From Thraustochytrium sp. TN22 (lineage: Eukaryota > Sar > Bigyra > Thraustochytrida > Thraustochytriidae), in assembly GCA_013306675.1 (NCBI GenBank), contig JABLUY010000039.1, positions 87,219-151,218 of the forward strand: a DNA stretch of 64,000 nucleotides, given 5' to 3'. Positions 4,329 through 64,000 of the stretch are shown piece after piece (position 1 is the stretch's first letter; each line of letters begins with the position of its first letter). The notes under the pieces are model-generated. The model was not told where the DNA came from and ran no database searches. It worked only from the letters and a program-made list of their open reading frames with translations. A program made the position numbers and the translations under genes.

Positions 4329-4420
4329 GCCGCCCTGCCTCGCGCGCCGCTGCGCCGCGCTGCCGCCCTCGTTGCGCTTTTGCAGCGCCGCGACCTCGAG
4401 CGCGTGCCGCTCTCCGACGT

Positions 4421-4462
4421 CGACTTCCACTCCGACTCCGACTCCGACTCCGACTTCGACTC

Positions 4463-4502
<40 letters not shown>
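4421..4502. repeat. Hexanucleotide low-complexity tract
   Basis: Runs of (TCCGAC)n followed by (GGCTCG)n. If the upstream start of the pseudokinase gene at 4604 were used, this would encode a Val/Gly then Arg/Ala run, which is one reason to prefer the start at 4328. Confidence 0.8.
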
Positions 4503-4540
4503 CGGGCCCGGGCTCCTTCGCTGCGCAGGCGGCCCGCGGC

Positions 4541-4960
4541 CGGTCGTGACGACGAGATGTGCTGCGCAGGGGCGCGACCTCGAGCGCGTGCCGCTCCAGG
4601 GCAATCAATCACCTGCTCTTCGCCATCGATGCGGACTCGGACTTCGGGCTCGGCCGCCTTCACCCTTATCACGACCGCCTTCATCTACTCACTGCGAGAT
4701 AAAGGCAGACCGCGCTCGGTCGTGATGATGAGATGTGCTGCGCAGGGGCGCGACCTCGAGCGCGTGCCGCTCCAGGGCAATCAATCACCTGCTCTTCGCC
4801 ATCGATGCGGACTCGGACTTCGGGCTCGGCCGCCTTCACCCTTATCACGACCGCCTTCACCTACTCACTGCGAGATAAAGGCAGACCGCGGTCGGTCGTG
4901 ATGATGAGCTCTGCTGCGCAGGGGCGCGACCGCGAACGCATGCCGCTCGAGGTCGCCGTC
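4541..4960. repeat. 176-bp tandem repeat, two full copies and a partial third
   Basis: Copies begin at 4541, 4717 and 4893 with 'CGGTCGTGA'. The first two are nearly identical over 176 bp; the third fades after about 65 bp. An earlier diverged piece ('GCGACCTCGAGCGCGTGCCG') sits at 4390-4409. The array lies just upstream of the first pseudokinase-ARM gene, in its likely promoter or 5' UTR. Confidence 0.9.
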
Positions 4961-5158
4961 CTGGGCTCAAGCGCATTCATCAAGGCTATTTCACCGTGCC
5001 AGGGAGGCAGAACCGCCGAGACCTGCTGCGACCGACGCGCAGGCTTGCTCGACGGCGTGTCGTCAGGCATCGGCAGAGCACAAGAATGAATCATGTTCAG
5101 TTCTTCGGTCGGAGATACTAAGGTCAGTAGAGGTCAAGTTCGCACGTCTTGCGATGCG
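4961..5158. other. Intergenic, nothing recognised
   Basis: Short unique stretch between the 176-bp array and the stop of the second pseudokinase-ARM gene. No gene or clear motif seen. Confidence 0.5.
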
Positions 5159-27203: not shown

Positions 27204-29981
<2,778 letters not shown>

Positions 29982-39166: not shown

Positions 39167-41374
39167 TCACGCCTTGACCTGCTTCTTGTGCTTGGAGGCC
39201 TTCTTGGCCTTCTTGGGCGTGGGCTCCTCCTCCTCCTCTTCACCCTCCTCGTCGTCCTCCTCCTCCTCCTGGTCGGCCTCGTCAAGGTCCATCTGCTCAG
39301 GCTCGGCCTTGTCCTTCTTGGACTTCTTCTTCTTCTGCTGCTTCTTCTTCTTCTTCTTGGTGGCGCTCTCGCTGGGCGCCGCCTCGGGCTCCTCCTCGTC
39401 GTAGACAAGGGAAGGCGCAGCCTTGCGCGCCGCGGCCTCCTCGTCCGGGCCGGACTGCAGCGCGACCTGCGCGAGGAGAAAGTCGACGCGGCCAGAGAGC
39501 TTGACGAACTTGTCATAGACCGAGATGCGCGCGTCGATGACCTGGTAGAGCTCGCCGAGCGCATCCTGCAAGTCCGGGATCGTGACGAGGTGCATGGCGT
39601 GCTGCTCGAGCACCGCGCGGATCCAGAGCAGCAGCGCGTGGCCGCGCGCCGGGCGGCCCTCGAGCTTGCCGACGACCGTCTTGAGGAACTGCACAGCGCG
39701 GCGCGGCGAGAGACGCTGCACCGTGGCGTTGACCACCTTCCTGTCCTGGTTACCCAGGACCACCTCGAGCAGCTGGTCGTCGTTGCTCTGCAGGGCCTGC
39801 TCCAGCACGGTGCTCAGCGAGCCGGCCGTGGGCTGCTCCCGCGGGCGTTTCCTCCGCTTGCCGTCCTCGTCGGCATCGCCGGCATCGCCGCCGTTGAGCA
39901 TCTTCTGCTGGCTCTCCTGCCACGCGAGACGCTCCTCACGGCGCTCCACGCGGCTGCGCTCGCGCTCGCTGTCCATGTGCTCCTGCAGCGTCTGCGTGAG
40001 CTCGCGCACGCGCTCGCCAAGCGGCCGCTCGTCCTCGTCCTCGGCGTCGCCCGCGCCCTTGGACTCCTCCATCTCCTCGTCGTCGTCGTTCTCGCCGGCC
40101 GCCGCGATCACCTGCGGCTTGGCGGCCACCGCGGCGCCCTTGGCGTCCTTGACCACGTGCACCTTGTCGCTGCCTTTGGCCTTGGCCTTGAGGTCGCTGT
40201 CGGCGGCCTTGGCCTCCTCCTCGGCCTCCCCGGCCTCCTCCTCCTCCTCCTCGCCTTCCTCGTCGTCGTCGTCGATAAGGGCGCCGCCCGCCTCCAGCAG
40301 GCGCGCGCTGGCCGAGGCGTCGCGTAGCGTCTTCTTCGCCGGGAGCTTGGCCAGGGCGAGGCGCTCAAAGACCGGGCGCAGCGAGGTGGCGCGCGCCAGC
40401 ACGACCTCGTCGTCCTCCTCGGCCGCCGAGGCGGCGCGCAGCAGGCCCACGGCCACCACGCGGCCGGCCGCCGGGCCCGGCGCGCGCAGCTCGTGGTGCG
40501 GCGTCGCCAGGCGCAGCGCCTCGCTGCCCGCGGCGGGCACCTCGGCGCGGAAGAGCGAGGCGCGGCCGTCCTCGCTGCACACGCCCACCAGCAGGCTGTC
40601 GGCCGCGCCGCGCAGCGCCAGGTGCACCGGCGCGCTGGCCACCGAGAAGGTGGCGGCCGGCTCGCGCTCCAGCGGCACCTTGCCGTCGTCCTCGCCACCG
40701 GTCGCCGCCCCACCAGCAGCAGCAGCCGCCGCCGCCGCCGAGACCCTCCACAGGGTCACGACACGGTCGTCGCAGCACGAGACGAAGCTGGCGCCATCGT
40801 CCGCGAAGGCCATGTCGCGCACGGGCGTCGGGTGGCCCGCGAAGCGCTGCAGGCGCGCGCCCGAGGCCAGGTCCCACAGCTTGATGCCCGTGGTGGCCGT
40901 CAGCATGCGCTTGCCGTCGGGGCTCACGCAGATGCGCGCGCAGCCCTGCTTGCCCACCTTGAACTTGCGCGTCGGCGTCGGCTCGCCGCTCTCCAGGTCG
41001 AACTCGTACACGTAGCGCCCGCTGGCGCCGCACGCGAACAGCCGGCCGCCGTCTGGCGCCAGCGCCACGGCCGCCACCGCCTCGGCCTCGGACGTCTGCG
41101 GCAGCTGCACGGCCGACAGCACGCGCTGCGCGCGGCTCATGTCCCACACCGTCACCTGCCCGCGCGCGTTGCCCGTGGCCACCAGCTGCTTGCCGCCCAC
41201 GCACCGCATCGCCACGCACGCGTACCGCTGCGTCAGGTGGTCCTTCTCGTGCCGCGCCTGCTTGAGCGCCCCGGACTCCACATCCCACACCGCCAGCCGG
41301 TTGTCCGCCGTCACCTGCACCAGCACGCCCGCCTCGGCGTCCAGCACGCCCAGCGCGCCCACCTCCGCGGCCAT
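39167..41374 (-). CDS. Utp5/WDR43-like small-subunit processome protein
   Basis: 735 residues. Residues 1-330 are WD40 repeats ('NRLAVWDVESG', 'GQVTVWDM', 'GIKLWDLASG', 'VVTLWRV'). Residues ~375-520 are an acidic, charged region. Residues ~525-645 are a Utp12 domain ('LSTVLEQALQSNDDQLLEVV', 'RAVQFLKTVVGKLEGRP', 'LLLWIRAVLEQH'). Residues ~680-735 are a Lys/Glu tail with poly-Lys, a likely nucleolar targeting signal. WD40 plus Utp12 at this length is the plan of Utp5/WDR43, a t-UTP subunit needed for pre-rRNA transcription and 18S maturation in the nucleolus. Other WD40-Utp12 members (Utp4, Utp9, Utp12, Utp13) are longer or differ in the tail. It diverges from the Vma22-like gene over a 476-bp promoter region. 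Confidence 0.85.
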   Translation of the reverse strand: MAAEVGALGVLDAEAGVLVQVTADNRLAVWDVESGALKQARHEKDHLTQRYACVAMRCVGGKQLVATGNARGQVTVWDMSRAQRVLSAVQLPQTSEAEAVAAVALAPDGGRLFACGASGRYVYEFDLESGEPTPTRKFKVGKQGCARICVSPDGKRMLTATTGIKLWDLASGARLQRFAGHPTPVRDMAFADDGASFVSCCDDRVVTLWRVSAAAAAAAAGGAATGGEDDGKVPLEREPAATFSVASAPVHLALRGAADSLLVGVCSEDGRASLFRAEVPAAGSEALRLATPHHELRAPGPAAGRVVAVGLLRAASAAEEDDEVVLARATSLRPVFERLALAKLPAKKTLRDASASARLLEAGGALIDDDDEEGEEEEEEAGEAEEEAKAADSDLKAKAKGSDKVHVVKDAKGAAVAAKPQVIAAAGENDDDEEMEESKGAGDAEDEDERPLGERVRELTQTLQEHMDSERERSRVERREERLAWQESQQKMLNGGDAGDADEDGKRRKRPREQPTAGSLSTVLEQALQSNDDQLLEVVLGNQDRKVVNATVQRLSPRRAVQFLKTVVGKLEGRPARGHALLLWIRAVLEQHAMHLVTIPDLQDALGELYQVIDARISVYDKFVKLSGRVDFLLAQVALQSGPDEEAAARKAAPSLVYDEEEPEAAPSESATKKKKKKQQKKKKSKKDKAEPEQMDLDEADQEEEEDDEEGEEEEEEPTPKKAKKASKHKKQVKA

Positions 41375-42800: not shown

Positions 42801-44735
42801 TCATGACTTGCGGCGGCGACGCGAAGACGACTTCTTGCACTTGATCCAAGGCTTGAGCTTGTTCTTGGCGCACGGGTCGGCCGGCGTAAGGTCGGGCTTG
42901 CCCGGCACCGCGCACGTGTACAGGTCAGCCATGGTGGTGGTGGCGTTGCGCGTGTCGAGAAAGCCCCAGGGCGAGAGCTCTAGGTCGCGGTCCGCGCCGC
43001 GCGACGATGACAGGCGTAGCGCGCCAGCCACGAGGCCAGCGTGGGCCAGCGTGGCGCGCGCCATCTCGGCAGCCACCGGCGCAATGTCCTTGCCGTCGTC
43101 GGCGGCCATCTTGGCACGCAAAGACTCCTTGCGCTGCTGCGCAACGCTAAGCCCGCTGCTGCTGCTGCTGCTGCTGCCACCGCCGCCACCTTCGTCGTCG
43201 TCGTCGTCAAAGGTGACCCCGGCCAGCTTGGCCTGTCGGCGCGCCTCGATGAAGGCCTTGGACGAGCTCGTCTCGATCATGAGTGGGTACGGGATGAGCG
43301 CGTCGTAAAAGGCCCAGTCGATGGAGATGCCGGACGAGGAAATCTCCAAGGTCTTGCGCCGCGGCTTGAAGGAGTACTCGCCGTGGCCCACGGCGTTCAT
43401 CTGGTCGCACAGGTGGCGGCCCACCGCCGAGTGCGCGCGCTCCGCCTGCTGCGCGACGTGGCAGTAGTTGCGCGGCTGCAGGACGCCGCCGATACAGCAG
43501 TGCACAGCCAGCAGGCCGGAGACCGCCGTGCCGAGACGGCGATGTCGCGCTTGCGCGCGGCGCACGCGCGCATCGCGGGCCAGACCGCCCGGCACGCCGG
43601 CGCCCGTGATCCAGTCACGGAAGGCGCGCGTCTCCGCCGCCTCAAAGGGCGCCGCGCCCATGTACACCTCGCTCTCGGTCCACGTCTGGCCGTGGCCCCA
43701 CGTGAAGCCGGCCGACCCCCAGTTCCGGTTCAGGTCGATGCCCACCGTGCCGTCCGCGTTGCGCTGCCGGTTCTTGCGCCAGAAGCGCTTCTGCTTCTCC
43801 TCCTCCGCCTCACTGTCGGCGCGCGCGCCGTGCGTGTACGCGTAGCCGTCCGGGTTGAGCACCGGCACGATCCACACGTTCACGAGCCGCAAGAGCGCCG
43901 CGGGCGCCATGCTGGCGTCCGCGCCGTCCACCAGCGCGGGCGCCTCGCCCGTCAGCAGCAGGCGCGCCGCCTCGGCCAGCGCCATGGGCACCATCCACTC
44001 GCGCCCGTGCTCCGTGCCGAGAACGACCACGTTCGGGTTCGTGTTGGCCGCCGTCGACGACGCCAGCCGCAGCGCCACGAGCGGCCGGCCCTCGGCGGAG
44101 CTGCCCAGCTGGCCCAGCGACACCTCCTCCGGGAACGCCTCGCGCAGCCACACAAAGAACGCCAGCAGCGAGTCCCAGTCCCTAAAGTCGCTGAAGAACT
44201 CGCCGCTCCCGCTCGCGCCAAAGGAGGTCTGCAGCAGTCGCGCCGTCGCGGCCCGCGCCTTCTTGGCCGCCAGGGGCCGCAGCCCCTCCAGGAGCACGTC
44301 GCCCTGGCCCTCCTTGAGCTTGACCCGCTTCGGCGTCACTGAGGCGGGCTGCAGCGCAAAGGTCTCCTTGATCTTGGCGGCCGTGGGCTCCTCGCCGCCC
44401 CGCAACTGCTGCTGGGCCTCCTTCTCGACGAGCTCCTGCGGCAGGTCCTGCGACGACCTTCGGCCTGCGACCGCCAGCAGCACGAGCACCGCTGTTGCCG
44501 CGGCCAGCAGGGCCAGGACGGCTTGTGCGCCGCGAGGCAGTGCCTCCGCGCGCGCGCGCAGCCGCCTCACGCGCAGCAGGAGCCCGCGGCGCGCATGGAG
44601 CGGCCCCGCGTCTTCGTCGTCCGTGGCTGTCGTGCCGTGCTCTGGGTCAGGCTCGTCCGCTCCTGCTCGCGCGCTGCGCGGCGGCGCGCGGCGCTTCGCG
44701 CGGCGCGCCGTTGTCGACTCGGCCGTGCCGCTCAT
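42801..44735 (-). CDS. M14 zinc carboxypeptidase, type II membrane protein
   Basis: 644 residues. A basic cytosolic tail, then one membrane segment (~70-91, 'AVLALLAAATAVLVLLAVAG') and a lumenal or extracellular M14 peptidase domain (~175-600). Visible active-site elements are the zinc ligands His243 and Glu246 ('HGREW'), 'NPDGY', the Asn336-Arg337 carboxylate-binding pair ('GIDLNRNWG'), His412 as third zinc ligand ('AVHCCIGG') and the catalytic glutamate Glu488 ('IPYPLMIET'). Residues ~380-405 before His412 are Arg-rich and atypical. A low-complexity insert (Asp5, Gly5, Ser7; ~510-527) separates Glu488 from the last helix. The enzyme should remove C-terminal residues from peptides. A/B versus N/E class specificity cannot be assigned. 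Confidence 0.88.
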   Translation of the reverse strand: MSGTAESTTARRAKRRAPPRSARAGADEPDPEHGTTATDDEDAGPLHARRGLLLRVRRLRARAEALPRGAQAVLALLAAATAVLVLLAVAGRRSSQDLPQELVEKEAQQQLRGGEEPTAAKIKETFALQPASVTPKRVKLKEGQGDVLLEGLRPLAAKKARAATARLLQTSFGASGSGEFFSDFRDWDSLLAFFVWLREAFPEEVSLGQLGSSAEGRPLVALRLASSTAANTNPNVVVLGTEHGREWMVPMALAEAARLLLTGEAPALVDGADASMAPAALLRLVNVWIVPVLNPDGYAYTHGARADSEAEEEKQKRFWRKNRQRNADGTVGIDLNRNWGSAGFTWGHGQTWTESEVYMGAAPFEAAETRAFRDWITGAGVPGGLARDARVRRAQARHRRLGTAVSGLLAVHCCIGGVLQPRNYCHVAQQAERAHSAVGRHLCDQMNAVGHGEYSFKPRRKTLEISSSGISIDWAFYDALIPYPLMIETSSSKAFIEARRQAKLAGVTFDDDDDEGGGGGSSSSSSSGLSVAQQRKESLRAKMAADDGKDIAPVAAEMARATLAHAGLVAGALRLSSSRGADRDLELSPWGFLDTRNATTTMADLYTCAVPGKPDLTPADPCAKNKLKPWIKCKKSSSRRRRKS

Positions 44736-46686: not shown

Positions 46687-48632
46687 GCTGCGCCGCCCGC
46701 CGCGGGCCGCGCGGCCGGAGTGAGCCCGGCCCGAGCCCGGTCTTGGCTTCAGGCTGGTTTGCTTTGGTGATGAGATTAGGACAGACGCGGACACCGCCAG
46801 TGACTGGCAGACGGACGCGGTGGCGAGCTGACTGGGAGTCAAGGCGAGGCGAGCCATTGGAGCCAAGTTCAACGCGAGGGCGACGCGAGGACGCGCGAGG
46901 GCACACGGGGCGAGGGCGCGCGAGGGGCCAGGAGCTGGCAACCCACGCGACGAACGGCTCGAGCACACGTTTGAGGTAAAGGGCCCGGGGCGTGGCAGCC
47001 TGAGCGGCAGGTCAAGACCGTCAAGTCCGGGTCCTCGCTGGATGACGTACGCTCAAGAGTGACTCGGACGCAAGGTACAGACAAAAAGCAGCTGATCTCT
47101 CTCAGCAGTCAGCAACCCAAGCTGATCTCTCTCAGCAGCAACCCAAGCTAATCTCTCTCAGCAGCAACCCAAGCTGATCTCTGCGCAGAGAGGCTTAGAT
47201 GACATGATGACATGACAACAAGCAAGAACGCGATCAATGCCAGCTCACGGACGCTCACAACTGGGGCCTTGGCTCCTCCGGCCGTCCTCGTCAGCCATGG
47301 CCAGCGCGCAGCGCTGGCAGAGTCACTGATCAGTGACTCGGAGGCCAGGAAAGGCGAATGTCCAAAACCTGCGTCAGCGGCGGCTCACGTGTCCATCCCT
47401 CGAACTTCGTTGCCACATGCGTCCGAAGCTGTCCTTGCCAAAACTCCACCGAGCGAGGCCGAGCGCCGAGCTCGCACGCCACACGCCGCTAATCATTCCG
47501 CGCAGCTCCGCAGCCTCAGTCCGCGCAGCTCCGCTCCGCTCACTCATGTCAGCGGCGGCCGGCGCGGCCCTTCGCGTGCGTCGCGGCGACCTGTGGTCAT
47601 CAACTTGGTCGCCGCCGTGCAGTGCAGTGCCAGTGACAGCACGCAGTGCAGTGCCTGCCGGTGTCCGCGCCGACGTCATCATCCTCTCAAGCCACGCAGT
47701 AGCTTACAGCTACCACGTCTCGTGCTCCGAGTCCGTGCCGGGTCCGTGTCCGCGTCAAGCGTCGAGCCGGGTCCTCCCGAGCTTCTCGTTTCCCCCTCCA
47801 GCCCTCTCTCTCGGCTCGCTCGCCCGCTCGCTCGCTCGCTCACTCGCTCGCTCGTCGCAGGCGGCCTGGCGGCGGCGGGCCAGGCCGTGAGACGCGGCGC
47901 GCCGACGCAGGGCGGCGTACGCTCGCACGCCAGCCACGGCCGAATCCGCGAACGCAGAGCTCTGCCAATCTTTTGCCAGGCTCTGCCAGCTTGCAGTGAA
48001 GGCTAGCTAGCTAGCTAGTAGCTACCTGCGATGAGCGCTGACTGGTCAAAGCTCAGCCTCGGCCGCTGCGGCGCGAGCGCGGCTGCAGCGGCGCTGCGGC
48101 TGCGCGCGTCGGGCGCGGCGAAGGCCAGCCTCGAGCTGCTCCGCGCGGGGCTGGCCGCGCCGAGCGGAGCCGAGCGGAGCGGAGCCGAGCCGAGCCGAGT
48201 CGAGCAGGCCTGACAGGTCCGTCTCGCGTTGCGTCTGGATTTGCTCTGCCCTCGCTCGCGCGACGGCGACGGCGAGCTCTTGCGAGAGCGCGCGGCGGGC
48301 TGCGCGAGCCTCGGCCAGAGTCGCTCGCGGCGCCAGGCAGGCCAGCGCTGCTCGGGCTCTGCGCTCAGCCTGGCAGCTGCTGCCTGGTTCGCCGCTCGCG
48401 GGCGGCGCGTGTTGACGTTGGCGTGCACGGCGCAGGATCGCGGGTGGCTGCGCAGGTCTGCTGACTGTGATCAGCAGCGAGGCGAAGGAATTCGAATTCA
48501 AATCGCGCGCGGCGCGGGCGCGGGCGCGGGCGCGGGCGGCGCGGCGGCGGCGAGCGAGCGAGCGGCCCGGCGCGCGGCGGCGCGCGGTTCGGCCCGCGGT
48601 TGGCGGCGGCGGCGAGCGGCGGCGGCGGCGGG
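46687..48632. other. Divergent intergenic region, NIP30-like / OGDH
   Basis: About 1.9 kb. It holds a 26-bp tandem repeat (47090-47186), (CTCG)n at ~47816-47856, 'GCTAGCTAGCTAGCTAG' at ~48003-48019, a GGAGCCGA/GAGCC tract (~48165-48205) and a GAATTC pair (48487-48500). Open frames here have no recognisable protein. Confidence 0.5.
47090..47186. repeat. ~26-bp tandem repeat, four units
   Basis: Units of AGCTGATCTCTCTCAGCAGC followed by AACCCA; the first is longer by a 'TCAGC' insertion and the last is truncated. Confidence 0.85.
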
Positions 48633-51600
48633 ATGATGTGGGCGGCCGGAGGGTCGGCGCGCGGGCGCGCCGCAGCCAGGGCGCGCGGCGGCGCCAGGCT
48701 GCTGGCGGGCGTGGCGCGCAAGGCGCCGCACCCGAACGAGTCGTTCCTGCAGGGGACGAGCGCGGTGTACCTGGAGCAGATGTACGAGCTGTTCAAGAGC
48801 GACCCGAGCAAGGTGGACGCGTCGCTGGCGACGTACTTTAGGAACGTGGACAACGGGATGGACGCCGGCGCCGCGTTCCAGCCGTACCCCGGGCTGACGA
48901 CGCAGCTGTCGGCCGCGGCCTCGTCCGTGTCGACCGGGTCGTCGCTGCAGGAGCACAAGGCGCTCAAGGACGCCATGAACATCACCTTCCTGGTGCGCGC
49001 CTTCCAGGTGCGCGGCCACGAGCAGGCGAACCTGGACCCGCTGGGCATCGCCAAGCCGGCGGCGCTGCCGGACCTGGACTTCCGCACGTACGGGTTCACG
49101 GACGCGGACCTGGACCGCGAGTTCGACCTGGGCGGCCTGGAGAAGGAGATGGCCGGCGTGCTGGGCGCGCACAAGCCGCAGAAGCTGCGCGACGTGGTCA
49201 ACACGCTGCAGGAGTCGTACTGCGGGTCCATCGGCCTCGAGTACATGCACATCCAGGACCGCGAGAAGTGCAACTTCATCCGCGAGCGCTTCGAGAAGCC
49301 CAACGCGGTGCGCGAGGGCCTGAGCAAGGAGGAGCGCCTGCAGATCCTGGAGCGCCTCACCTTCGCGGTCATGTGGGAGAGCTTCCTGTCCACCAAGTGG
49401 AACACGGCCAAGCGCTTCGGCCTCGAGGGCGCCGAGTCCTTCATCCCCGGCTTCAAGTCGCTCATCGACCAGGCCACGCTCAACGGCGTGGAGAACGTGG
49501 TCGTGGGCATGCCGCACCGCGGCCGCCTCAACGTCATCGCCAACGTGGTGCGCAAGGACCTGTACAAGATCTTTCTGCAGTTCAAGGGCCTTAGCGTGCA
49601 GAACGAGCAGCTCTTCAAGTCGCTCAAGGACGACTACGCCATCAGCGGCGACGTCAAGTACCATCTGGGCATGACGTACCAGCGCATGTACCCGGACGGC
49701 CGCAAGGTGGAGCTCTCGCTGGCCGCCAACCCGTCGCACCTCGAGGCCGTCGACCCGGTCGTCATCGGCAAGGCGCGCGCCAAGCAGTACTACGCCGGCG
49801 ACGAGGAGGGCACGCGCACCATGCCGGTGCTCATCCACGGCGACGCCGCCTTTAGCGGCCAGGGCGTCGTGTACGAGACCATGAACATGAGCGGCCTCCC
49901 CGGCTACAAGACCGGCGGCGTCATCCACATCATCGTCAACAACCAGATCGGCTTCACCACCGACCCGCGCGACGCGCGCTCCACCAAGTACTGCTCGGAC
50001 CTCGGCCGCGCCTTCGACTGCCCCATCTTCCACGTCAACGCCGACGACCCGGAGGCCGTCGCCTACGTCTTCAAGGCCGCCGCCGACTACCGCCACAAGT
50101 ACCACAAGGACGTCATCATCGACGTCATCGGCTACCGCCGCAACGGCCACAACGAGATGGACCAGCCGCTCTTCACCCAGCCCAAGATGTACCAGATCAT
50201 CAAGAAGACCCCCTCGGTCCTCGACAAGTACGCCAACCAGGCCGTCCAGGAGGGCCTCTGCGACAGCGGCCACGTCGCCTCCGTCAAGAACATGGTCATG
50301 GAGATCTACGAGGAGGAGTTCCGCAAGTCCACCGAGCCCAACCTCGTCGTCGACGACCACGAGTGGACCGACTCCAAGTGGGAGGGCCAAAAGGCCATCG
50401 GCGAGTTCTCCGTGCGCCAGCCCACCCGCGTCGACGAGGACGTCCTCAAGTCCATCGGCGAGGTCATCTTCCAGCCCCCCGAGGGCTTCGCCCCGCACCG
50501 CACCATCAAGAAGCTCACCAAGGACAAGCTCGAGATGTGCCGCAGCGGCAAGGCCCTCGACTGGGGCTGCGCCGAGCTCCTCGCCTACGGCTCCCTCCTC
50601 CTCGAGGGCAAGCACGTGCGCGTCTCCGGCCAGGACGCCCAGCGCGGCACCTTCTCCCATCGCCACGCCGTCCTCCACGACCAGAACGAGCCCTACGGCA
50701 CCTGGGTCGGCCTCAACGAGCTCGCTGAGTCCGGCCTCAAGCCCGTCGGCCCCACCGACCACATCGCCAAGATGTCCGCCTGCAACTCCCTCCTCTCCGA
50801 GTACGGCGTCATGGGCTTTGAGCTCGGCTACGCGCTCGAGGACCCTAACGCCCTCATCATCTGGGAGGCCCAGTTCGGCGACTTCTCCAACGGCGCCCAG
50901 ATCATCGTCGACCAGTTCATCTCCTGCGGTGAGACCAAGTGGAACCGCCAGTGCGGCCTCACCCTCTTCCTGCCCCACGGCTACGACGGCCAGGGCCCGG
51001 AGCACTCCTCCTGCCGCATCGAGCGCTTCCTCCAGCTCTCCGACGAGGACCCGGACACCATCCCGGAGCACTCCGGCCGCGAGCAGAGCATGGCCATCCA
51101 GAACAACAACTGGCAGGTCTGCAACGTCACCACCCCGGCTCAGATCTTCCACCTCCTCCGCCGCCAGGTCCACCGCGGCTTCCGCAAGCCCCTTGTCGTC
51201 GCCACGCCCAAGAGCATGCTCAAGGATGACCTCGTGCGCTCCGACATTGAGGACTTTACCGGCCCCGACGCCTACTTCCACCGCCTGCTCTTCGAGGTCG
51301 ACCCCGAGATCAACGCCACCCCGGACGAGGACATCCGCAAGGTCATCTTCTGCGTCGGCAAGATCTACTACGAGCTTGCCAACTACCGCAAGAAGAACGA
51401 CATCAAGGACGTCGCCATCATCCGCATCGAGCAGATCACTCCCTTCCCCTTTGACCGTGTCGCCGAGGTCTACGAGAAGTACCCCAACGCCAAGCTCGTC
51501 TTCGCCCAGGAGGAGCCCAAGAACATGGGCACCTGGTACTTTTGCGATGACCGCATCTACACTGCCATCCGCAGCGTCCGCCTCGCCCGCGGCGACCCCG

Positions 51601-51779
51601 TCGACAGCGAGCCCGAGCTCCGCTGCGAGTACATTGGCCGCTCCACCATGGCCTCCCCTGCCGTCGGCTACGGTGGCGTCCATGCCCTCGAGCAGCAGGA
51701 CATCCTGGAGCGCGCCTTTGCGCCCAACGATGCCCCGCACCAGGGCGACACCGTCATCGACCCGGCTTCCCTCGAGTAG
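48633..51779 (+). CDS. OGDH: 2-oxoglutarate dehydrogenase E1 component, mitochondrial
   Basis: 1048 residues from ATG 48633 (a second Met follows at once). The first ~35 residues are Arg/Ala-rich without acids, a mitochondrial presequence. 'SFLQGTSAVYLEQMYELFKS' is the E1 N-terminal domain. 'GMPHRGRLNV' begins near residue 292; the thiamine-diphosphate motif GDA-x30-NN starts near 402 ('HGDAAFSGQGVVYE' ... 'NNQIGF'). The pyrimidine-binding domain is near 650-850 and the C-terminal domain ends 'GVHALEQQDILERA'. The length agrees with the family (~1000-1020 plus presequence). It decarboxylates 2-oxoglutarate in the TCA cycle, passing succinyl groups to E2. Intron-less here. Codon third positions drift from G to C along the gene. 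Confidence 0.97.
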   Translation: MMWAAGGSARGRAAARARGGARLLAGVARKAPHPNESFLQGTSAVYLEQMYELFKSDPSKVDASLATYFRNVDNGMDAGAAFQPYPGLTTQLSAAASSVSTGSSLQEHKALKDAMNITFLVRAFQVRGHEQANLDPLGIAKPAALPDLDFRTYGFTDADLDREFDLGGLEKEMAGVLGAHKPQKLRDVVNTLQESYCGSIGLEYMHIQDREKCNFIRERFEKPNAVREGLSKEERLQILERLTFAVMWESFLSTKWNTAKRFGLEGAESFIPGFKSLIDQATLNGVENVVVGMPHRGRLNVIANVVRKDLYKIFLQFKGLSVQNEQLFKSLKDDYAISGDVKYHLGMTYQRMYPDGRKVELSLAANPSHLEAVDPVVIGKARAKQYYAGDEEGTRTMPVLIHGDAAFSGQGVVYETMNMSGLPGYKTGGVIHIIVNNQIGFTTDPRDARSTKYCSDLGRAFDCPIFHVNADDPEAVAYVFKAAADYRHKYHKDVIIDVIGYRRNGHNEMDQPLFTQPKMYQIIKKTPSVLDKYANQAVQEGLCDSGHVASVKNMVMEIYEEEFRKSTEPNLVVDDHEWTDSKWEGQKAIGEFSVRQPTRVDEDVLKSIGEVIFQPPEGFAPHRTIKKLTKDKLEMCRSGKALDWGCAELLAYGSLLLEGKHVRVSGQDAQRGTFSHRHAVLHDQNEPYGTWVGLNELAESGLKPVGPTDHIAKMSACNSLLSEYGVMGFELGYALEDPNALIIWEAQFGDFSNGAQIIVDQFISCGETKWNRQCGLTLFLPHGYDGQGPEHSSCRIERFLQLSDEDPDTIPEHSGREQSMAIQNNNWQVCNVTTPAQIFHLLRRQVHRGFRKPLVVATPKSMLKDDLVRSDIEDFTGPDAYFHRLLFEVDPEINATPDEDIRKVIFCVGKIYYELANYRKKNDIKDVAIIRIEQITPFPFDRVAEVYEKYPNAKLVFAQEEPKNMGTWYFCDDRIYTAIRSVRLARGDPVDSEPELRCEYIGRSTMASPAVGYGGVHALEQQDILERAFAPNDAPHQGDTVIDPASLE

Positions 51780-52085: not shown

Positions 52086-55000
52086 TCATGCTTGCACATC
52101 CTTGGTCTCAATCAGTGCCAGCACGACAATGGCACGAGCCGCAGCCGCACTGGCCACATCTGCAAAACCCTGGTCCGAAACGTGTGGCTGCGCCGAATCC
52201 AAAGCTTCGTCAAAGCCCTTGACCAGCGTGTCGCGAAAGGCAAACCGAAAGACGCGCAACGCCTCGACGCCGTCCAAGGCCGCGCCACTGTTGCTCACGC
52301 CTGTCGAAGTAAAGTCAGATCCTGCAAGCGACGTGCGCATGCCCATCTCTGCGATCACACGCAAGCACGTTTTCACTCTCTCTCTCTCTCTGTCAGTCTC
52401 CGTGTGTCCTCGCGTCGCCCGCACCCGTTCATGCCCAAGTCCCTCCACAAACCTACGCTGCTCCATGCTGACAAGGTCGGCCCAGGCACGAGGAAAGAGC
52501 TTCTGGTGCGCCCTGTCCAGCACAGAGGGGTCGAAGGCGTCCTCTTCAAAGGCCATGTCAAAGTCCACGGGCGCCAGCAGGTCCTCCTGGTCTGCACTGG
52601 CGTCCAACACAACCATGTTGTTGGCATGCGCATTGCAGTGAATGCCCGTCTCGTCCGGGTAAGTGCCCCACGAAACGGCGTTGGAAGCGAGCGCGTGGCA
52701 AGCAACGCCGCACTGCCAACCAAGGACAAAGGCGAGCTGCAGCAAGACGCTCGGCGCGGCCTCCTCGACGTGGGCCAGTGCCTCGGCCAGCTCGCGCGCC
52801 GCAGGAGCCCAGGCAGGGTGGTCTGAAGCCGCCGGGTCCGGCGCTGACTCCCGCAGGTCAACCAGCCCGCGCATATCGCACACCGGCATGCCGCATTCTG
52901 CCACGGTGGCCGTGTCCCAGATCTCGTCCCCATCCATGCCGCGCGCACCCTGCAGGGCGGTGCGCCACGCCTTGCTTCTCGCGTCTGCCGCGGCGCCGCC
53001 GCAGAGCGAGGGTAGGAGGCGCTCGATGCCGCCCAAGAGGTGGTCACCGAGCCGGCGGTCGCCTAGCGTCTCGTACACGTTGCAGAGCGCCATGACATGC
53101 GCCGGCAAGTGCGGCGTCTCGTAGCGATAGAAACACGCAGGCCGGTTCCCGGCGCGCAACCCGCGCGGCGCCAAGACCTCGTGCACGCGGTCGCTCATCC
53201 GCATCTCCGTGGCGGCCGTGCGGTCGAAGAGGCAGCCGCGTACCATGCGCTCGCCGTGGTCGCCGCGCGCCTCCACGATGAACCCGTCCGTGTTGTTGCC
53301 GCAGCCCTTGAGCCGATACGAGCGGTCACCCACGCGCACGACGGCAGATCGCACGCCCGAGGCGCTGCACCGCAGCGCGCTGGGCTCGCTCGCCGCCTCC
53401 TCCTCTGTGCACTTGATCAGCGGCGTCGTGGCCAACGCGCTCGGTGCGAGCGTGCGCCGCGGCGGCCCAGGCGGCACGTACATGGGGGCGGCTCGCGCCG
53501 GCAGCCGCGGTTCCACGAGCAAATCGGCTCCACCGGCAGTCTGCGCAGCCTCCGCCTCCTCGTCCGTCTCGTCGTCCGCGCAGGCCAGGCCGGCCACGCC
53601 CGCGCCCTGCAGAAAATCCGGCAGCCCGAAGACGCGGCCTGGCGCCGGCTTGAGCCAGACCTTGCCCTCGGCGCCCAGGAACACGTCCGCGCGCGCGTGC
53701 AGCAGGGCAGCCGCGGCGCAAAGCCCGCAGTTCGGACTGGGCGATGCGTGCACGAAGGAGCGGTCGCTCTTGTCGAGGCCGAGGCCGATCTCGTAGCTCA
53801 TCTGCTCCTCCGAAGTCATGCCCTCGTCCAGGTTGAACACGATGCAGGTCGGCGGGTCGCGCGCCGTCGGGCCCGTCAGCGTGTTGAGCCAGTGCGAGAC
53901 CATGAGGGTGCCGCACGCCAGGCAAGGGCACACCCACGACCCAAAGAAGCGCGTCTGCGGCAGCATGGGCCGCGGCACAAAGCGCAGGTCGGGCAGCTGC
54001 GAAATGCGGCCCGGCACCAAGCGCTCCATGGCGCGCGCGTGCATGCATTCCAGGAACCCCGCAAGCGCGTCCTGCGCCTCCAGGTCGCCCACCGACACCG
54101 CGCCCACGTCATCGAGCGCCTCGCGCACGATCGCGTCTGTGGTGGACCCCCAGATCCGGAACTGGCGGTCCTCGCGCAGAAAGGCCGCCGTCGCCTCCGG
54201 CAACGAGGAGTCCGGCTCCGCGCCGGCGACAAAGTCGCGCCAGCGCGCGCTCACCTCGGGCATGTTTTGCAAGCCAAATGAGCTGCGCGTGGATTCCTGA
54301 CAGAATGCGCAAGAGGCCGTGGGCTGGCCCAGGTAGCACTCCGACATGAACTTCCACGCGAACGACTGGCCCGTCGCCACCGGCACACCCAGTTCCTTGC
54401 CAAGCGCCGCCACGCAGTAGTCGAACATCACGCCCACGTCGGCGCAATTGAAGATGACCGTGGCCTGGCGCGCCCATCGCACGACCTGCGGCCACAGCTC
54501 CAGCACGTCGCCATGCATGGTGAGGATACGCGATCGGAGGTTGTGCTGCGCCAGCAGGTTGGCGCGCGCCGCCTCGACCTTGGGCAGGCCCACGTCGGCG
54601 CGCGTCGTCAGGCACTGCCGGGTCAGGTTCGATGCATCCACAGCGTCGTAGTCCAGCAGGATAATACACTCCACGCCGGCGCGCGCCAGCGTCAGAGCCG
54701 TGTTCTGGCCCACACCGCCTGTACCCACAACCAGGCACACCTGCCGCTCCACGAGGCCCTGGTCAAAGTCCACCATCACGCGCTGCCGGTCGAAGATGTC
54801 GCCGCCCACCTCGGGCGGCGGCGGCTTCTTACGGTGCTCCACGCTGCGCCCGCTTCTGTACTCCTCGCTGTCCGTGGGCCACGACTCGTCGCGCCGCACG
54901 AAGCCAGGCGCCAGCGCTGCAGACGCCGGCGCCGGCTCCGTCTGCGCCGCGCACCACGCGCGCAGCGTGCCAACGCGCAGATCCACGCTCGCCTCGGCCG

Positions 55001-56222
55001 TCGCGCTCGCGGGAGCACCGCTCCCGGCCTCCAGCTCCGGCAGCAGCCCGCCGAGGTGGTCCAGGAAGGCGGCCACAGCGTCCACTTCCGTGACGAGGAG
55101 CGCCACACGCACCTCGCGCGGGCGATGCGTCCACCAGAGCTCGTTCTTGGTGCGCCCCTTCCAGTACTCGGGCACGCCGTGCTCGTAGAACTGCTCAATC
55201 GCGTCCTCCGGCATGTTGGCGTACACGGGGTGGCTCGCGCGAAGCTTTGCAAAGAACTTGGGCCGGTACCCCGCCATGACCGCGTCCGCCAGCTCGTGTG
55301 GGCTCCCGAAGCGGTCGCGCTCCGCCAGCGTCTCGCTCGCGCGCTCGCGCCGCGCGTACGCCGAGGTGAACTGCATGCACGTCTTGTCAAAGGACTCCGC
55401 AAAGTACACCGTGCCCAGGCCCGCATCCACGGCCGCGGCCGCCCAGTGCGTGACACACCCAAAGACCATGACGCGCGGCAGCCGCGTGCCCTGCGCCTGC
55501 GCCTCCTCGAGGCCGCCGAAGACGCCGATGCGCCCGCGCAGGCGCCAGTCGCGCTCCACCAGGTATCGCATCTGCATCTGGTCCAGCGTCACGGACCGCA
55601 GCCCCGACGCCGACCACCGCTTGCTCACCGCGTTGTACTCGTGCAGCAGCCGCAGCCACTTCATCACTTGCGCGTAAAAGTGCACTTCGTCCGTCTTGAC
55701 GGCCTGCGCCTCCGGGTCCAGCAGCCGCAGCGCGTTGTACAGGGCGTGAAAGCCGCACGCGTTCGGGTGCCACTGCCGCAGCGTGCGCGGCTGGCAGTAC
55801 GTCACGCCCTCCGCCTCGAACCAGTGCGCCAGCTCCGCACTTCCGCCCTCTCGCGCCTCGCCCTCCTGGGTCTCGTCCTGGTCCTCCTCCCCGTGCTGCG
55901 TCAGGTCGCCGACCTCTGCGGGCAGCGAGCGCACGAAGGCGTGCAGCAGCACGTCCAGGCGCGCCGCCTCGCAGTTGCAGGGCAGCTCCAGCTCGTTGGC
56001 CAGCTCCACGCCGCGCACGCGGGCCCGCACGCGCAGCTCCAGCCGCGTGTCGCGCTCCGCGTCCTTGCGCTCGCGCGCGAGCTCCGCGGTCACCAGGATG
56101 GTATCGCGGTCGGCGCCATCGCGCCCCACGCTCCGCACCTGCTGCACCTCCGCCACTTGGCGCGCGGCCTGGGCCTCCAGCGCCGCCGCCAGCGCGCCGC
56201 CCCACCCGCGCAGCCCCTCCAT
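52086..56222 (-). CDS. Papain-like protease / ThiF-E1 / SelO-like kinase-fold fusion protein
   Basis: 1378 residues, uninterrupted. (1) ~140-350: cysteine-peptidase-like domain with Cys156 in 'NACGFHALYNAL', His259-Trp in 'CVTHWAAAAVD' and Glu276/Asp279 in 'VYFAESFD', the order of papain-fold deubiquitinases. (2) ~480-800: ThiF/MoeB/E1 adenylation domain with GTGGVG (500-505), 'LLDYDAVDASNLTRQ' (Asp524, Asn532, Arg535, Gln536), Lys548 and paired zinc cysteines C638-x2-C641 and C767-x2-C770, as in UBA5-class E1s. (3) ~960-1250: a kinase-like fold resembling SelO, with Lys972 in 'RLKGCGNNTDGF', Glu1006, 'HCNAHANN' (1195-1202) and Asp1220-Phe-Asp1222. It could process, activate and regulate a ubiquitin-like modifier in one chain; that is inference. 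The start at 56222 is the first Met of the frame. Confidence 0.8.
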   Translation of the reverse strand: MEGLRGWGGALAAALEAQAARQVAEVQQVRSVGRDGADRDTILVTAELARERKDAERDTRLELRVRARVRGVELANELELPCNCEAARLDVLLHAFVRSLPAEVGDLTQHGEEDQDETQEGEAREGGSAELAHWFEAEGVTYCQPRTLRQWHPNACGFHALYNALRLLDPEAQAVKTDEVHFYAQVMKWLRLLHEYNAVSKRWSASGLRSVTLDQMQMRYLVERDWRLRGRIGVFGGLEEAQAQGTRLPRVMVFGCVTHWAAAAVDAGLGTVYFAESFDKTCMQFTSAYARRERASETLAERDRFGSPHELADAVMAGYRPKFFAKLRASHPVYANMPEDAIEQFYEHGVPEYWKGRTKNELWWTHRPREVRVALLVTEVDAVAAFLDHLGGLLPELEAGSGAPASATAEASVDLRVGTLRAWCAAQTEPAPASAALAPGFVRRDESWPTDSEEYRSGRSVEHRKKPPPPEVGGDIFDRQRVMVDFDQGLVERQVCLVVGTGGVGQNTALTLARAGVECIILLDYDAVDASNLTRQCLTTRADVGLPKVEAARANLLAQHNLRSRILTMHGDVLELWPQVVRWARQATVIFNCADVGVMFDYCVAALGKELGVPVATGQSFAWKFMSECYLGQPTASCAFCQESTRSSFGLQNMPEVSARWRDFVAGAEPDSSLPEATAAFLREDRQFRIWGSTTDAIVREALDDVGAVSVGDLEAQDALAGFLECMHARAMERLVPGRISQLPDLRFVPRPMLPQTRFFGSWVCPCLACGTLMVSHWLNTLTGPTARDPPTCIVFNLDEGMTSEEQMSYEIGLGLDKSDRSFVHASPSPNCGLCAAAALLHARADVFLGAEGKVWLKPAPGRVFGLPDFLQGAGVAGLACADDETDEEAEAAQTAGGADLLVEPRLPARAAPMYVPPGPPRRTLAPSALATTPLIKCTEEEAASEPSALRCSASGVRSAVVRVGDRSYRLKGCGNNTDGFIVEARGDHGERMVRGCLFDRTAATEMRMSDRVHEVLAPRGLRAGNRPACFYRYETPHLPAHVMALCNVYETLGDRRLGDHLLGGIERLLPSLCGGAAADARSKAWRTALQGARGMDGDEIWDTATVAECGMPVCDMRGLVDLRESAPDPAASDHPAWAPAARELAEALAHVEEAAPSVLLQLAFVLGWQCGVACHALASNAVSWGTYPDETGIHCNAHANNMVVLDASADQEDLLAPVDFDMAFEEDAFDPSVLDRAHQKLFPRAWADLVSMEQRRFVEGLGHERVRATRGHTETDRERERVKTCLRVIAEMGMRTSLAGSDFTSTGVSNSGAALDGVEALRVFRFAFRDTLVKGFDEALDSAQPHVSDQGFADVASAAAARAIVVLALIETKDVQA

Positions 56223-61891: not shown

Positions 61892-64000
61892 ATGGCGCCG
61901 CGCGGCCTCCTGGCCTGGCTCCGCCGCGGCGCCCGCGCCGGGCCTGACGAGAACGGCGACACGGCTGCAGCGCCGCGCGGCGTCAAGCGACGAGCACGTG
62001 CGCGCAGCCCACCTCGCCAACGCTGCGAAAGCCCCGCGGCGGGCGCAGACGTCGTGGACCTCGTGAGCGACGCAGACTCCGACTCGGACGACGCGCGTGA
62101 CGCTGTGCGGCTTGGCAAGCGCGCTCGCGCTGCGGCCCTGCCGGCACCGCGCGAGCTACTGGCTGACGTCAAGCCGGAGCCGCTTGGATTCCCGGGTCAC
62201 TTCGTGGACGCGGCAGAGCTGCACCAAGACTCCACTGGCGATAACTTCGTCAAAATGGAGGTGCTCGCTGCGATGGATGACGCCGCAGTGGACCGTCGGC
62301 AGCTTGGCGCCAGGGAGGTGGATGACGAGCGCAAGCTGACCGGCCGCGATGAGTCCGCGTCCGAGGCGACGAGCGGCACTGCGGTCAGGATCAAGCCTGA
62401 GATGCTTGGCTTCCCGAGCCACTTTGTGGACGCGGCAGAGCTGGATCAGGACGGCATTGGCGGCAGCTTCGTCAAGATGGAGGTACTTGCTGCACTGGAC
62501 GACGCGGCGCGCGACGCTGCGGACGCGTTAGCTCACGGCGAGGCGTCGCGGGACGCACTGAATGCGGCCTCTTCGCAAGATGCGCGAGGCACTGTTCGAC
62601 GGAGAGTATCTGGGACGGGTGCTGCAGCGGCGTCTGCACGCAAGCGCTGCAGCATTGACGGATGCGGGAGACCGATAGGCCCTAGTGGCCGGCCGTTCTG
62701 CGGCGCACACGGAGGCGGACGTCGCTGCGAGCGTCTGGACTGCAAGAAGAGCGCCGTGAGTGGTGGCAGGCCCTTTTGCAAGGCCCATGGAGGCGGACGT
62801 CGCTGCGAGCGTTTGGACTGCAACAAGAGTGCTGTGAGGAGCGGCAGTCCCTTCTGCATTGCACATGGAGGCGGGCGTCGCTGCGAGCACCCGGCCTGCG
62901 ACAAGAGAGCCCGCAGCCGCAGCCATCCCTTCTGCAAGGCGCATGGAGGCGGGCGTCGCTGCGAGCACCCGGCCTGCGACAAGAGCGCCGTCAGCGGCGG
63001 CAGTCCCTTCTGCACCGCTCATGGAGGCGGGCGTCGCTGCGAGCACCCGGCCTGCGACAAGTGTGTCGAAAGTGGCGGCAGGCCCTTCTGCATCGCACAT
63101 GGAGGCGGGCGTCGCTGCGAGCACCCGGCCTGCGACAAGAGCGCCCGCAGCGGCGGCAGGCCCTTCTGCAAGGCGCATGGAGGCGGGCGTCGCTGCGAGC
63201 ATCCGGCCTGCGACAAGGGCGTACAAAGTGGCGGCATGCCCTTCTGCAAGGCGCATGGAGGCGGGCGTCGCTGCGAGCACCCGGCCTGCGACAAGAGTGC
63301 TGAAGGCGGCGGCGGGCCCTTCTGCAGGGCGCACGGAGGCGGGCGTCGCTGCGAGCATCCGGCCTGCGCCAAGAGCGCCGTCAGTGGCGGCAGGCCCTTC
63401 TGCAAGGCGCATGGAGGCGGGCATCGATGCGAGCACCCGGCGTGCGACAAGAGCGCCGTCAGCGGCGGCAGGCCCTTCTGCATCGCTCATGGAGGCGGGC
63501 GTCGCTGCGAGCACCCGGCGTGCGACAAGAGCGCCGTCAGCGGCGGCAGGCCCTTCTGCGTTGCGCATGGAGGCGGGCGTCGCTGCGAGCACCCGGCGTG
63601 CGACAAGAGCGCCGCCAGCGGCGGCAGGTCCTTCTGCGTTGCGCATGGAGGCGGGCGTCGCTGCGAGCACCCGTCCTGCGACAAGGGCGTCCAAAGTGGC
63701 GGCAGTCCCTTCTGCATTGCACATGGAGGCGGGCGTCGCTGCGAGCGCCCAGCCTGCGACAAGAGTGCCCGCAGCGGCGACAGGTCCTTCTGCATTGCAC
63801 ATGGAGGCGGGCGTCGCTGCGAGCATCCGGCCTGCAACAAGATCGCCATCCGCGGCGGCAGGCCCTTCTGCATTGCACACGGAGGCGGGCGTCGCTGCAA
63901 GCATCCGGCCTGCGATAAGAGCGCCATCAGCAGCGGCAGGCCCTTTGCAAGGCGCATGGAGGCGGGCGCCGCTGCGAACACCCGGCCTGCGACAAGGCCG
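61892..64000 (+). CDS. WRKY19-like zinc-finger repeat protein with SUMO-type motifs (3' end outside window)
   Basis: ATG 61892 opens a frame that stays open to the window end. Residues ~1-60 are basic and Arg-rich, a likely nuclear signal. 'DVVDLVSDADSDSDD' (~50-65) matches a SUMO-interaction motif followed by acids and serines. Two copies of a ~40-residue block ('GFPSHFVDAAELDQDG ... FVKMEVLAALDD', preceded by VKPE or IKPE) lie at ~90-200 and give four psi-K-x-E sites. From ~residue 245 come at least 17 fingers of 26 residues (78 bp), C-x4-C-x11-C-x2-H ('RRCEHPACDKSAVSGGRPF', then C-K-A-H). Such 'WRKY19-like' fingers are common in oomycetes and related protists; DNA binding is presumed, not shown. 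At ~63942 one base is missing against the repeat, shifting the frame for the last ~60 bp. Confidence 0.85.
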   Translation, partial: MAPRGLLAWLRRGARAGPDENGDTAAAPRGVKRRARARSPPRQRCESPAAGADVVDLVSDADSDSDDARDAVRLGKRARAAALPAPRELLADVKPEPLGFPGHFVDAAELHQDSTGDNFVKMEVLAAMDDAAVDRRQLGAREVDDERKLTGRDESASEATSGTAVRIKPEMLGFPSHFVDAAELDQDGIGGSFVKMEVLAALDDAARDAADALAHGEASRDALNAASSQDARGTVRRRVSGTGAAAASARKRCSIDGCGRPIGPSGRPFCGAHGGGRRCERLDCKKSAVSGGRPFCKAHGGGRRCERLDCNKSAVRSGSPFCIAHGGGRRCEHPACDKRARSRSHPFCKAHGGGRRCEHPACDKSAVSGGSPFCTAHGGGRRCEHPACDKCVESGGRPFCIAHGGGRRCEHPACDKSARSGGRPFCKAHGGGRRCEHPACDKGVQSGGMPFCKAHGGGRRCEHPACDKSAEGGGGPFCRAHGGGRRCEHPACAKSAVSGGRPFCKAHGGGHRCEHPACDKSAVSGGRPFCIAHGGGRRCEHPACDKSAVSGGRPFCVAHGGGRRCEHPACDKSAASGGRSFCVAHGGGRRCEHPSCDKGVQSGGSPFCIAHGGGRRCERPACDKSARSGDRSFCIAHGGGRRCEHPACNKIAIRGGRPFCIAHGGGRRCKHPACDKSAISSGRPFARRMEAGAAANTRPATRP
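62630..64000 (+). repeat. 78-bp coding tandem repeat (zinc fingers)
   Basis: At least 17 units of 78 bp, each with 'GGAGGCGGGCGTCGCTGCGA'. The first unit (~62630) is diverged, the rest are closely similar, and the array continues beyond the window. It is the finger array of the gene at 61892. Confidence 0.95.

Follow-up and report, generated by a model that had tools for sequence, protein, structure and literature searches.

A conserved thraustochytrid protein combines a probable papain-like cysteine protease, an E1-type adenylating domain and a kinase-fold domain

Introduction

Does a single open reading frame (ORF) of a thraustochytrid encode a self-contained protein-modifier system? The question is raised by a gene on the minus strand of a 64,000-nucleotide stretch of Thraustochytrium sp. 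TN22 (contig JABLUY010000039.1, positions 87,219 to 151,218; hereafter, the window), which belongs to a genome assembly of 37.9 Mb in 453 contigs. An original prediction, made from the sequence alone, had read this ORF as one chain of three enzyme segments, a cysteine protease, a ThiF/E1 enzyme and a SelO-like kinase fold, acting together on a ubiquitin-like protein (Ubl). Here, we report that the three-part architecture is conserved beyond chance. A single-chain enzyme serving a Ubl or a sulphur-carrier-like protein has, taken as a whole, an even chance of being the correct account of it.

Results

The predicted single chain was borne out by five homologues, which aligned over 89–97% of the ORF with 37–59% identity to the window protein, P0001 (P0002, 59%; P0003, 57%; P0004, 46%; P0005, 41%; P0006, 37%). 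The alignment of these six sequences (A1, in which residue numbers refer to the unspliced reading of 1378 amino acids) was collinear across all domains, with P0003 stopping short of the final 90 residues. Identity to the window protein was 50–69% in the E1 part, 40–69% over residues 936–1255 and 30–61% in the protease part, while residues 851–935 (25–38%) and the first 130 residues (18–38%) were the least conserved. Since the five homologues are collinear and each segment is separately conserved, the ORF is more than a product of chance. The nearest named relative, P0002, comes from Hondaea fermentalgiana, which we take to be a thraustochytrid, and its record carries the name MOCS3; the record of another homologue names it as an MMETSP transcript and gives its type as complete. 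A repeat search with A1 recovered just three of the same homologues. Viral contigs, searched with the entire protein as well as with the protease and the kinase-fold family, yielded no relative, nor did the plasmids and phages searched; within the same genome, neither end domain had a paralogue at E ≤ 1, the sole match being the gene's own locus. The E1 region alone was matched by PHROGs models and, among the best 25 of 29 rows, by PADLOC models. In line with the original prediction, which knew of no described protein with this domain order, no description of a protease-E1-kinase-fold architecture was found in the literature surveyed, the coverage of which is incomplete and so gives no proof of novelty.

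The ORF lay where it had been placed, starting with an ATG at position 56222, and had the length first read; however, 1378 residues did not hold as the length of the mature protein. In A1, 36 residues of P0001 at approximately 1256–1291 were missing from the homologues that extend beyond this point. Joining the exons across 52456–52349 would yield EQQMGMRTS, identical to the letters of P0004, and the records of P0002 and P0003 likewise shift near residue 1256, which fits an intron at the same site. These 108 nucleotides are probably an in-frame intron that leaves the architecture unsplit, and because of it the mature protein would have about 1342 amino acids.

The ThiF/E1 nucleotide site with its two zinc-type CxxC pairs was found complete, as predicted. 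The PF00899 (ThiF) match covered residues 491–647 with an E-value of 5e-25 (88.5 bits vs. a curated cut-off of 28.1), the best PDB sequence matches were MoeB/ThiF chains (E = 3.3e-10), and the NCBIfam and PDB matches included MoeB, ThiF, MccB and the SUMO and NEDD8 E1s. The residues to which we assign the customary E1 adenylation roles, namely the GxGGxG loop (500–505), D524, D526, N532, R535, Q536, K548 and D595, were invariant in A1, as were the CxxC pairs 638/641 and 832/835. Further, R479-Q480 aligned on the RQ of the UBA4-like protein of the same genome, presumably the position of the Arg finger. Judged from these sequence features, adenylation by this domain is well supported. The domain thus shares with ThiF/MoeB/UBA4-type E1s the Rossmann adenylation core, the nucleotide-site residues and the two CxxC pairs. 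It differs from the UBA4-like protein in that its CxxC pairs lie 191 residues apart, with an extra stretch, and from ThiF, MoeB and UBA4 in its protease and kinase-fold flanks, in the lack of a rhodanese domain detectable by Pfam at E ≤ 1, and in the usual catalytic-Cys position. By hand count on the alignment, the position that we take to be that of the UBA4 catalytic Cys is Thr757 here, and C767, ten residues further, is invariant; a thioester step is therefore not assured. The genome has 18 ThiF places, and the eight loci examined by their Pfam domains comprised one UBA4-like protein with rhodanese, one UBA2-like, three UBA1-like and one UBA3-like protein, and two ThiF proteins without an E1-specific domain. 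The present E1 is additional to these eight.

Residues 131–396 are a probable papain-like cysteine protease, a class suggested by residue layout and by the predicted structure. The catalytic set had been given as C156, H259 and either E276 or D279. C156 and H259 were invariant in A1, together with Q150, and residue 276 was always acidic (E, E, E, E, D and D), but D279 fell away, as its position was not conserved (D, D, D, R, N and N). This Gln-Cys-His-acid layout is shared with papain-like deubiquitinases, and the predicted structure, of middling confidence, gave weak fold matches to the USP-like 8q00 and to prostaphopain B, 1x9y. In contrast to those deubiquitinases, Pfam recognised no protease family in any of the six members at E ≤ 10. 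Comparison of Pfam and PDB profiles with the protease and kinase-fold domains gave nothing significant (best E-value of 0.074).

The C-terminal domain has a protein-kinase-like fold, where one had been expected at residues 960–1250, and no Pfam match in any of the six members at E ≤ 10. K972, E1006 and D1220-F-D1222 were invariant in A1. Conservation was also followed in a wider alignment (A6) of 64 rows, consisting of 61 of the 84 family matches, the window piece, P0004 and P0005, with P0073 and P0076 left out. All 64 rows have Asn where a kinase has its catalytic Asp (HRD/HGD). P0073 and P0076 have Ser there, with FCSAHYNN replacing HCNAHxNN, and are possibly a divergent branch. The conserved nucleotide-site residues argue for nucleotide binding, perhaps with catalysis of the SelO kind; the lack of the Asp points to regulation or to a transfer reaction of an unusual type.

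Of the SelO-like kinase fold originally proposed, the protein-kinase-like fold, the Lys/Glu pair and the D-F-D motif were confirmed, but kinship with SelO was not: there was no PF02696 match, and hhalign gave a probability of only 0.1–0.3%, with the best SelO alignment pairing non-equivalent parts. As a control comparison of SelO with HipA scored just as low (0.2%), a remote kinship is compatible with these values. The kinase-fold domain aligned with the HipA profile on the catalytic loop (0.15%); neither this alignment nor the one with SelO is significant, and neither was taken as evidence. The family motif, HCNAHxNN, differs from its SelO counterpart, HGVMNTDN, and a true SelO is present in the same genome (PF02696, 1.1e-76). 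The PRPK/Bud32 and WaaP kinases are much smaller, with chains of about 230–240 residues, and showed no sequence match. In a tree of 88 rows (80 of the 84 family matches, the six fused proteins and two bacterial loci; P0020 and P0089, both short, and P0091 and P0092 were left out), the fused proteins grouped, with a support of 99, with ten rows read as stand-alone, some of them possibly truncated models (P0009–P0013, P0072, P0075, P0077, P0078 and P0081).

The two bacterial loci are the only true relatives among 103 pattern matches obtained when prokaryote genomes were scanned with 28 stand-alone kinase-fold sequences (A7). In a metagenome-assembled genome (MAG) of Ca. Aminicenantes, the family is linked to an E1 and a JAB-like domain. 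The gene row consists of a 75-amino acid ORF preceded by AAGGAGGT, a clear E1 with a ThiF domain, a 142-amino acid protein, a putative E2 judged by its position and a Cys motif, and a 669-amino acid protein. The first part of the latter carries HTHP...SGTDE, which we take to be a JAMM-type motif (PADLOC JAB, 7.9e-5), and the kinase-fold domain makes up the rest. Adjacent genes overlap or are spaced by 39 and 13 bases, in an operon-like manner. The 75-amino acid protein aligned to approximately residues 6–61 of ubiquitin with E-values of 1.1–1.3 for single-copy entries; the far lower values against poly-ubiquitin stem from its repeated copies and are no evidence. By its sequence features, the row looks like a bacterial Ubl-like tagging operon. 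It appears to be of the same type as the Ubl-E1-E2-JAB operons in rows 6a–6e of PMC1779556, where, in the passages concerned, JAB is fused to or adjoins the E1; a fusion of JAB to a kinase-fold domain does not occur in those passages.

In the second locus, from a Cellvibrionales MAG, a kinase-fold gene, which encodes a hydrophobic N-terminus and contains a gap of 10 N, is followed by a 225-amino acid protein with a match, below the Pfam cut-off, to Peptidase_C78 (E = 1.4e-4), presumably the UFM1-protease family. Both proteins of this locus (positions 3136–5680) begin with a hydrophobic, signal-like stretch and may be exported. Neighboring genes looked bacterial by eye, and both bacterial rows of the tree were long and stood apart, among other rows, which fits either transfer or misplacement. 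The family seems to be rare in bacteria. Among 297 genomes of the first phylum, six matched the whole Aminicenantes protein, five through the JAB part alone and one being the same MAG; among 398 genomes of the second, the single match to the family alignment was the same MAG.

The coordinates of the features are collected in Table 1. Among the other genes of the window, a 2-oxoglutarate dehydrogenase E1, assigned by eye (48600–51779, plus strand), is convergent with the present gene and lies about 300 bases from its 3' end. The minus strand carries a DEAD-box helicase gene (27204–28769), a WD40 and Utp12 gene (39167–41374), a Peptidase M14 gene (42801–44735) and a long ORF of imperfect repeats in units of about 26 residues by eye, where other frames are also open (62528–63904). 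Also on this strand, five long ORFs with ARM/LRRK2-type repeats, two with kinase and two with TIR domains and one with repeats alone, form what looks like a tandem signalling gene cluster (1716–22261).

Table 1. Positions in the window of the gene, its domains and its diagnostic residues
Feature	Position	Strand	Remarks
Whole ORF, protease, E1 and kinase-fold protein	52086..56222	-	1378 amino acids as read, ~1342 after probable splicing
Probable papain-like cysteine protease domain, residues 131-396	55035..55832	-	
Codon of Q150	55773-55775	-	6/6 sequences
Codon of predicted nucleophile C156	55755..55757	-	6/6 sequences
Codon of H259	55446..55448	-	H in 6/6
Codon of acid E276	55395-55397	-	E in 4, D in 2 of 6
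E1/ThiF-type adenylating domain, residues 471-842	53697..54812	-	PF00899 and MoeB/ThiF PDB chains
GxGGxG nucleotide loop, residues 500-505	54708..54725	-	Invariant in A1
First zinc-type CxxC, residues 638-641	54300..54311	-	6/6; aligned to CxxC of the UBA4-like protein of the same genome
Second zinc-type CxxC, residues 832-835	53718..53729	-	6/6; aligned to CxxC of the UBA4-like protein of the same genome
C-terminal kinase-fold domain, residues 843-1378	52086..53696	-	No Pfam match; occurs stand-alone in other protists
Codon of K972, beta-3-type Lys	53307..53309	-	K in 64/64 rows of A6
Codon of E1006	53205-53207	-	E in 62/64 rows of A6
HCNAHANN loop, residues 1195-1202	52617..52640	-	H1195, N1197, H1199 and N1202 in 64/64 rows of A6
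D1220-F-D1222, metal-binding-type motif	52557..52565	-	Both Asp in 64/64 rows of A6
Probable in-frame intron, 108 nucleotides	52349..52456	-	GTAGGT...CGCAG (GT..AG), 36 codons without stop, absent from homologues

Discussion

A Ubl-type pathway fits these results best, because the kinase-fold domain accompanies an E1 and a JAB-like domain in one setting, adjoins a C78-type match in another, and is here fused to a probable cysteine protease and an E1. In this pathway, for which we infer the protease class, substrate, catalysis and sequence of events, the papain-like domain would trim the modifier or strip it from its targets, and the ThiF/MoeB-type E1 would adenylate the C-terminus of the modifier using ATP. 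The kinase-fold domain would bind nucleotide and, with the modifier, the E1 or a substrate as its target, either transfer a nucleotidyl or phosphoryl group or exert nucleotide-dependent regulation. Compared with the Ubl-E1-E2-JAB operons, the protist gene lacks an E2 and carries a cysteine protease instead of JAB.

Several observations weigh against this pathway. The predicted structure of the protease reaches middling confidence and resembles PDB entries weakly, the residue at the UBA4 catalytic-Cys position, hand-counted, leaves a thioester in doubt, the kinase-fold domain is without its catalytic Asp, and most of its listed relatives have stand-alone length. The bacterial linkage consists of two short MAG contigs, with the domain in 1/297 and 1/398 genomes of the phylum samples. 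In the Aminicenantes row, JAB is weak in Pfam (0.03–0.2), none of the searches gave the putative E2 a significant match, and the likeness of the putative Ubl to ubiquitin is weak; the C78 match of the second locus, sub-cut-off in Pfam, has none in PDB or PADLOC. Finally, the self-contained system first envisaged holds in its architecture and E1 site but not in its modifier: no cognate Ubl was found among 30 ubiquitin-family places in the same genome, and none of the seven that were read was conspicuous as the orphan Ubl that had been anticipated. One locus of this genome (C104:400-1000) reads as two tandem ubiquitin-like units with an unusual tail, RGGC.

Among the alternatives, a regulatory fusion, in which enzyme activity is confined to the E1 and the protease and both are switched by the kinase-fold domain, a pseudokinase binding nucleotide or the modifier, is unlikely, though it is the one that we weigh most heavily. 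It is favored by the Asn that replaces the catalytic Asp throughout A6 and by the attachment or adjacency of the domain to different proteases in three contexts. However, A6 shows almost no exceptions at the Lys, Glu, Asn and two Asp positions that form the nucleotide and metal site, and SelO is an AMPylase despite its missing HRD Asp. The absence of this Asp from SelO is described in PMC3281104. In another reading, the E1 works in the manner of MccB or PaaA and needs no thioester step to activate its target, a small protein or peptide; the two flanking domains would then complete a natural product or peptide modification. We regard this as improbable. The PDB matches include chains of MccB and PaaA (E = 1.2e-8 and 2.5e-6), Thr757 apparently occupies the usual catalytic-Cys position by hand count, and a remote SelO relative, mchC, has a place in microcin maturation according to PMC3281104, but MoeB and ThiF outscore MccB, the invariant C767 could stand in for the catalytic Cys, and a bacterial relative adjoins an E1, a JAB-like domain, a putative E2 and a putative Ubl. 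Ten scanned neighboring ORFs of the window were also non-biosynthetic, which says little in a eukaryote.

The name MOCS3 of the Hondaea record and the ThiF/MoeB similarity would suit a plain MOCS3/UBA4 orthologue with extra domains. This is very improbable, since the genome has a separate ThiF and rhodanese protein (L001; rhodanese, 2.8e-6), and the present protein, for which Pfam shows no rhodanese at E ≤ 1, scores far under the MoeB and ThiF equivalog cut-offs; the database name is not supported. The great abundance of long ORFs that overlap on the two strands of the window, together with one in-frame intron, could suggest a chance ORF or read-through of separate genes; this was rejected, its probability being close to nil, as it is refuted by five collinear homologues from several sources, including the one named as a complete MMETSP transcript.

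Returning to the Ubl-type pathway, we tentatively propose, while considering it somewhat less probable than that pathway itself, that the HCNxHxNN kinase-fold family is an undescribed component of Ubl systems in bacteria and protists, a nucleotidyl transferase or nucleotide-gated partner of a deconjugating protease, and that this component became joined to protease and E1 in the thraustochytrid lineage, giving a modifier machine made of a single protein. If this is true, ubiquitin-like systems would gain a kinase-fold module, a first functional lead would emerge for a protist protein family that Pfam does not match, and a single polypeptide would permit the protease, the E1 and the third enzyme to be assayed jointly.

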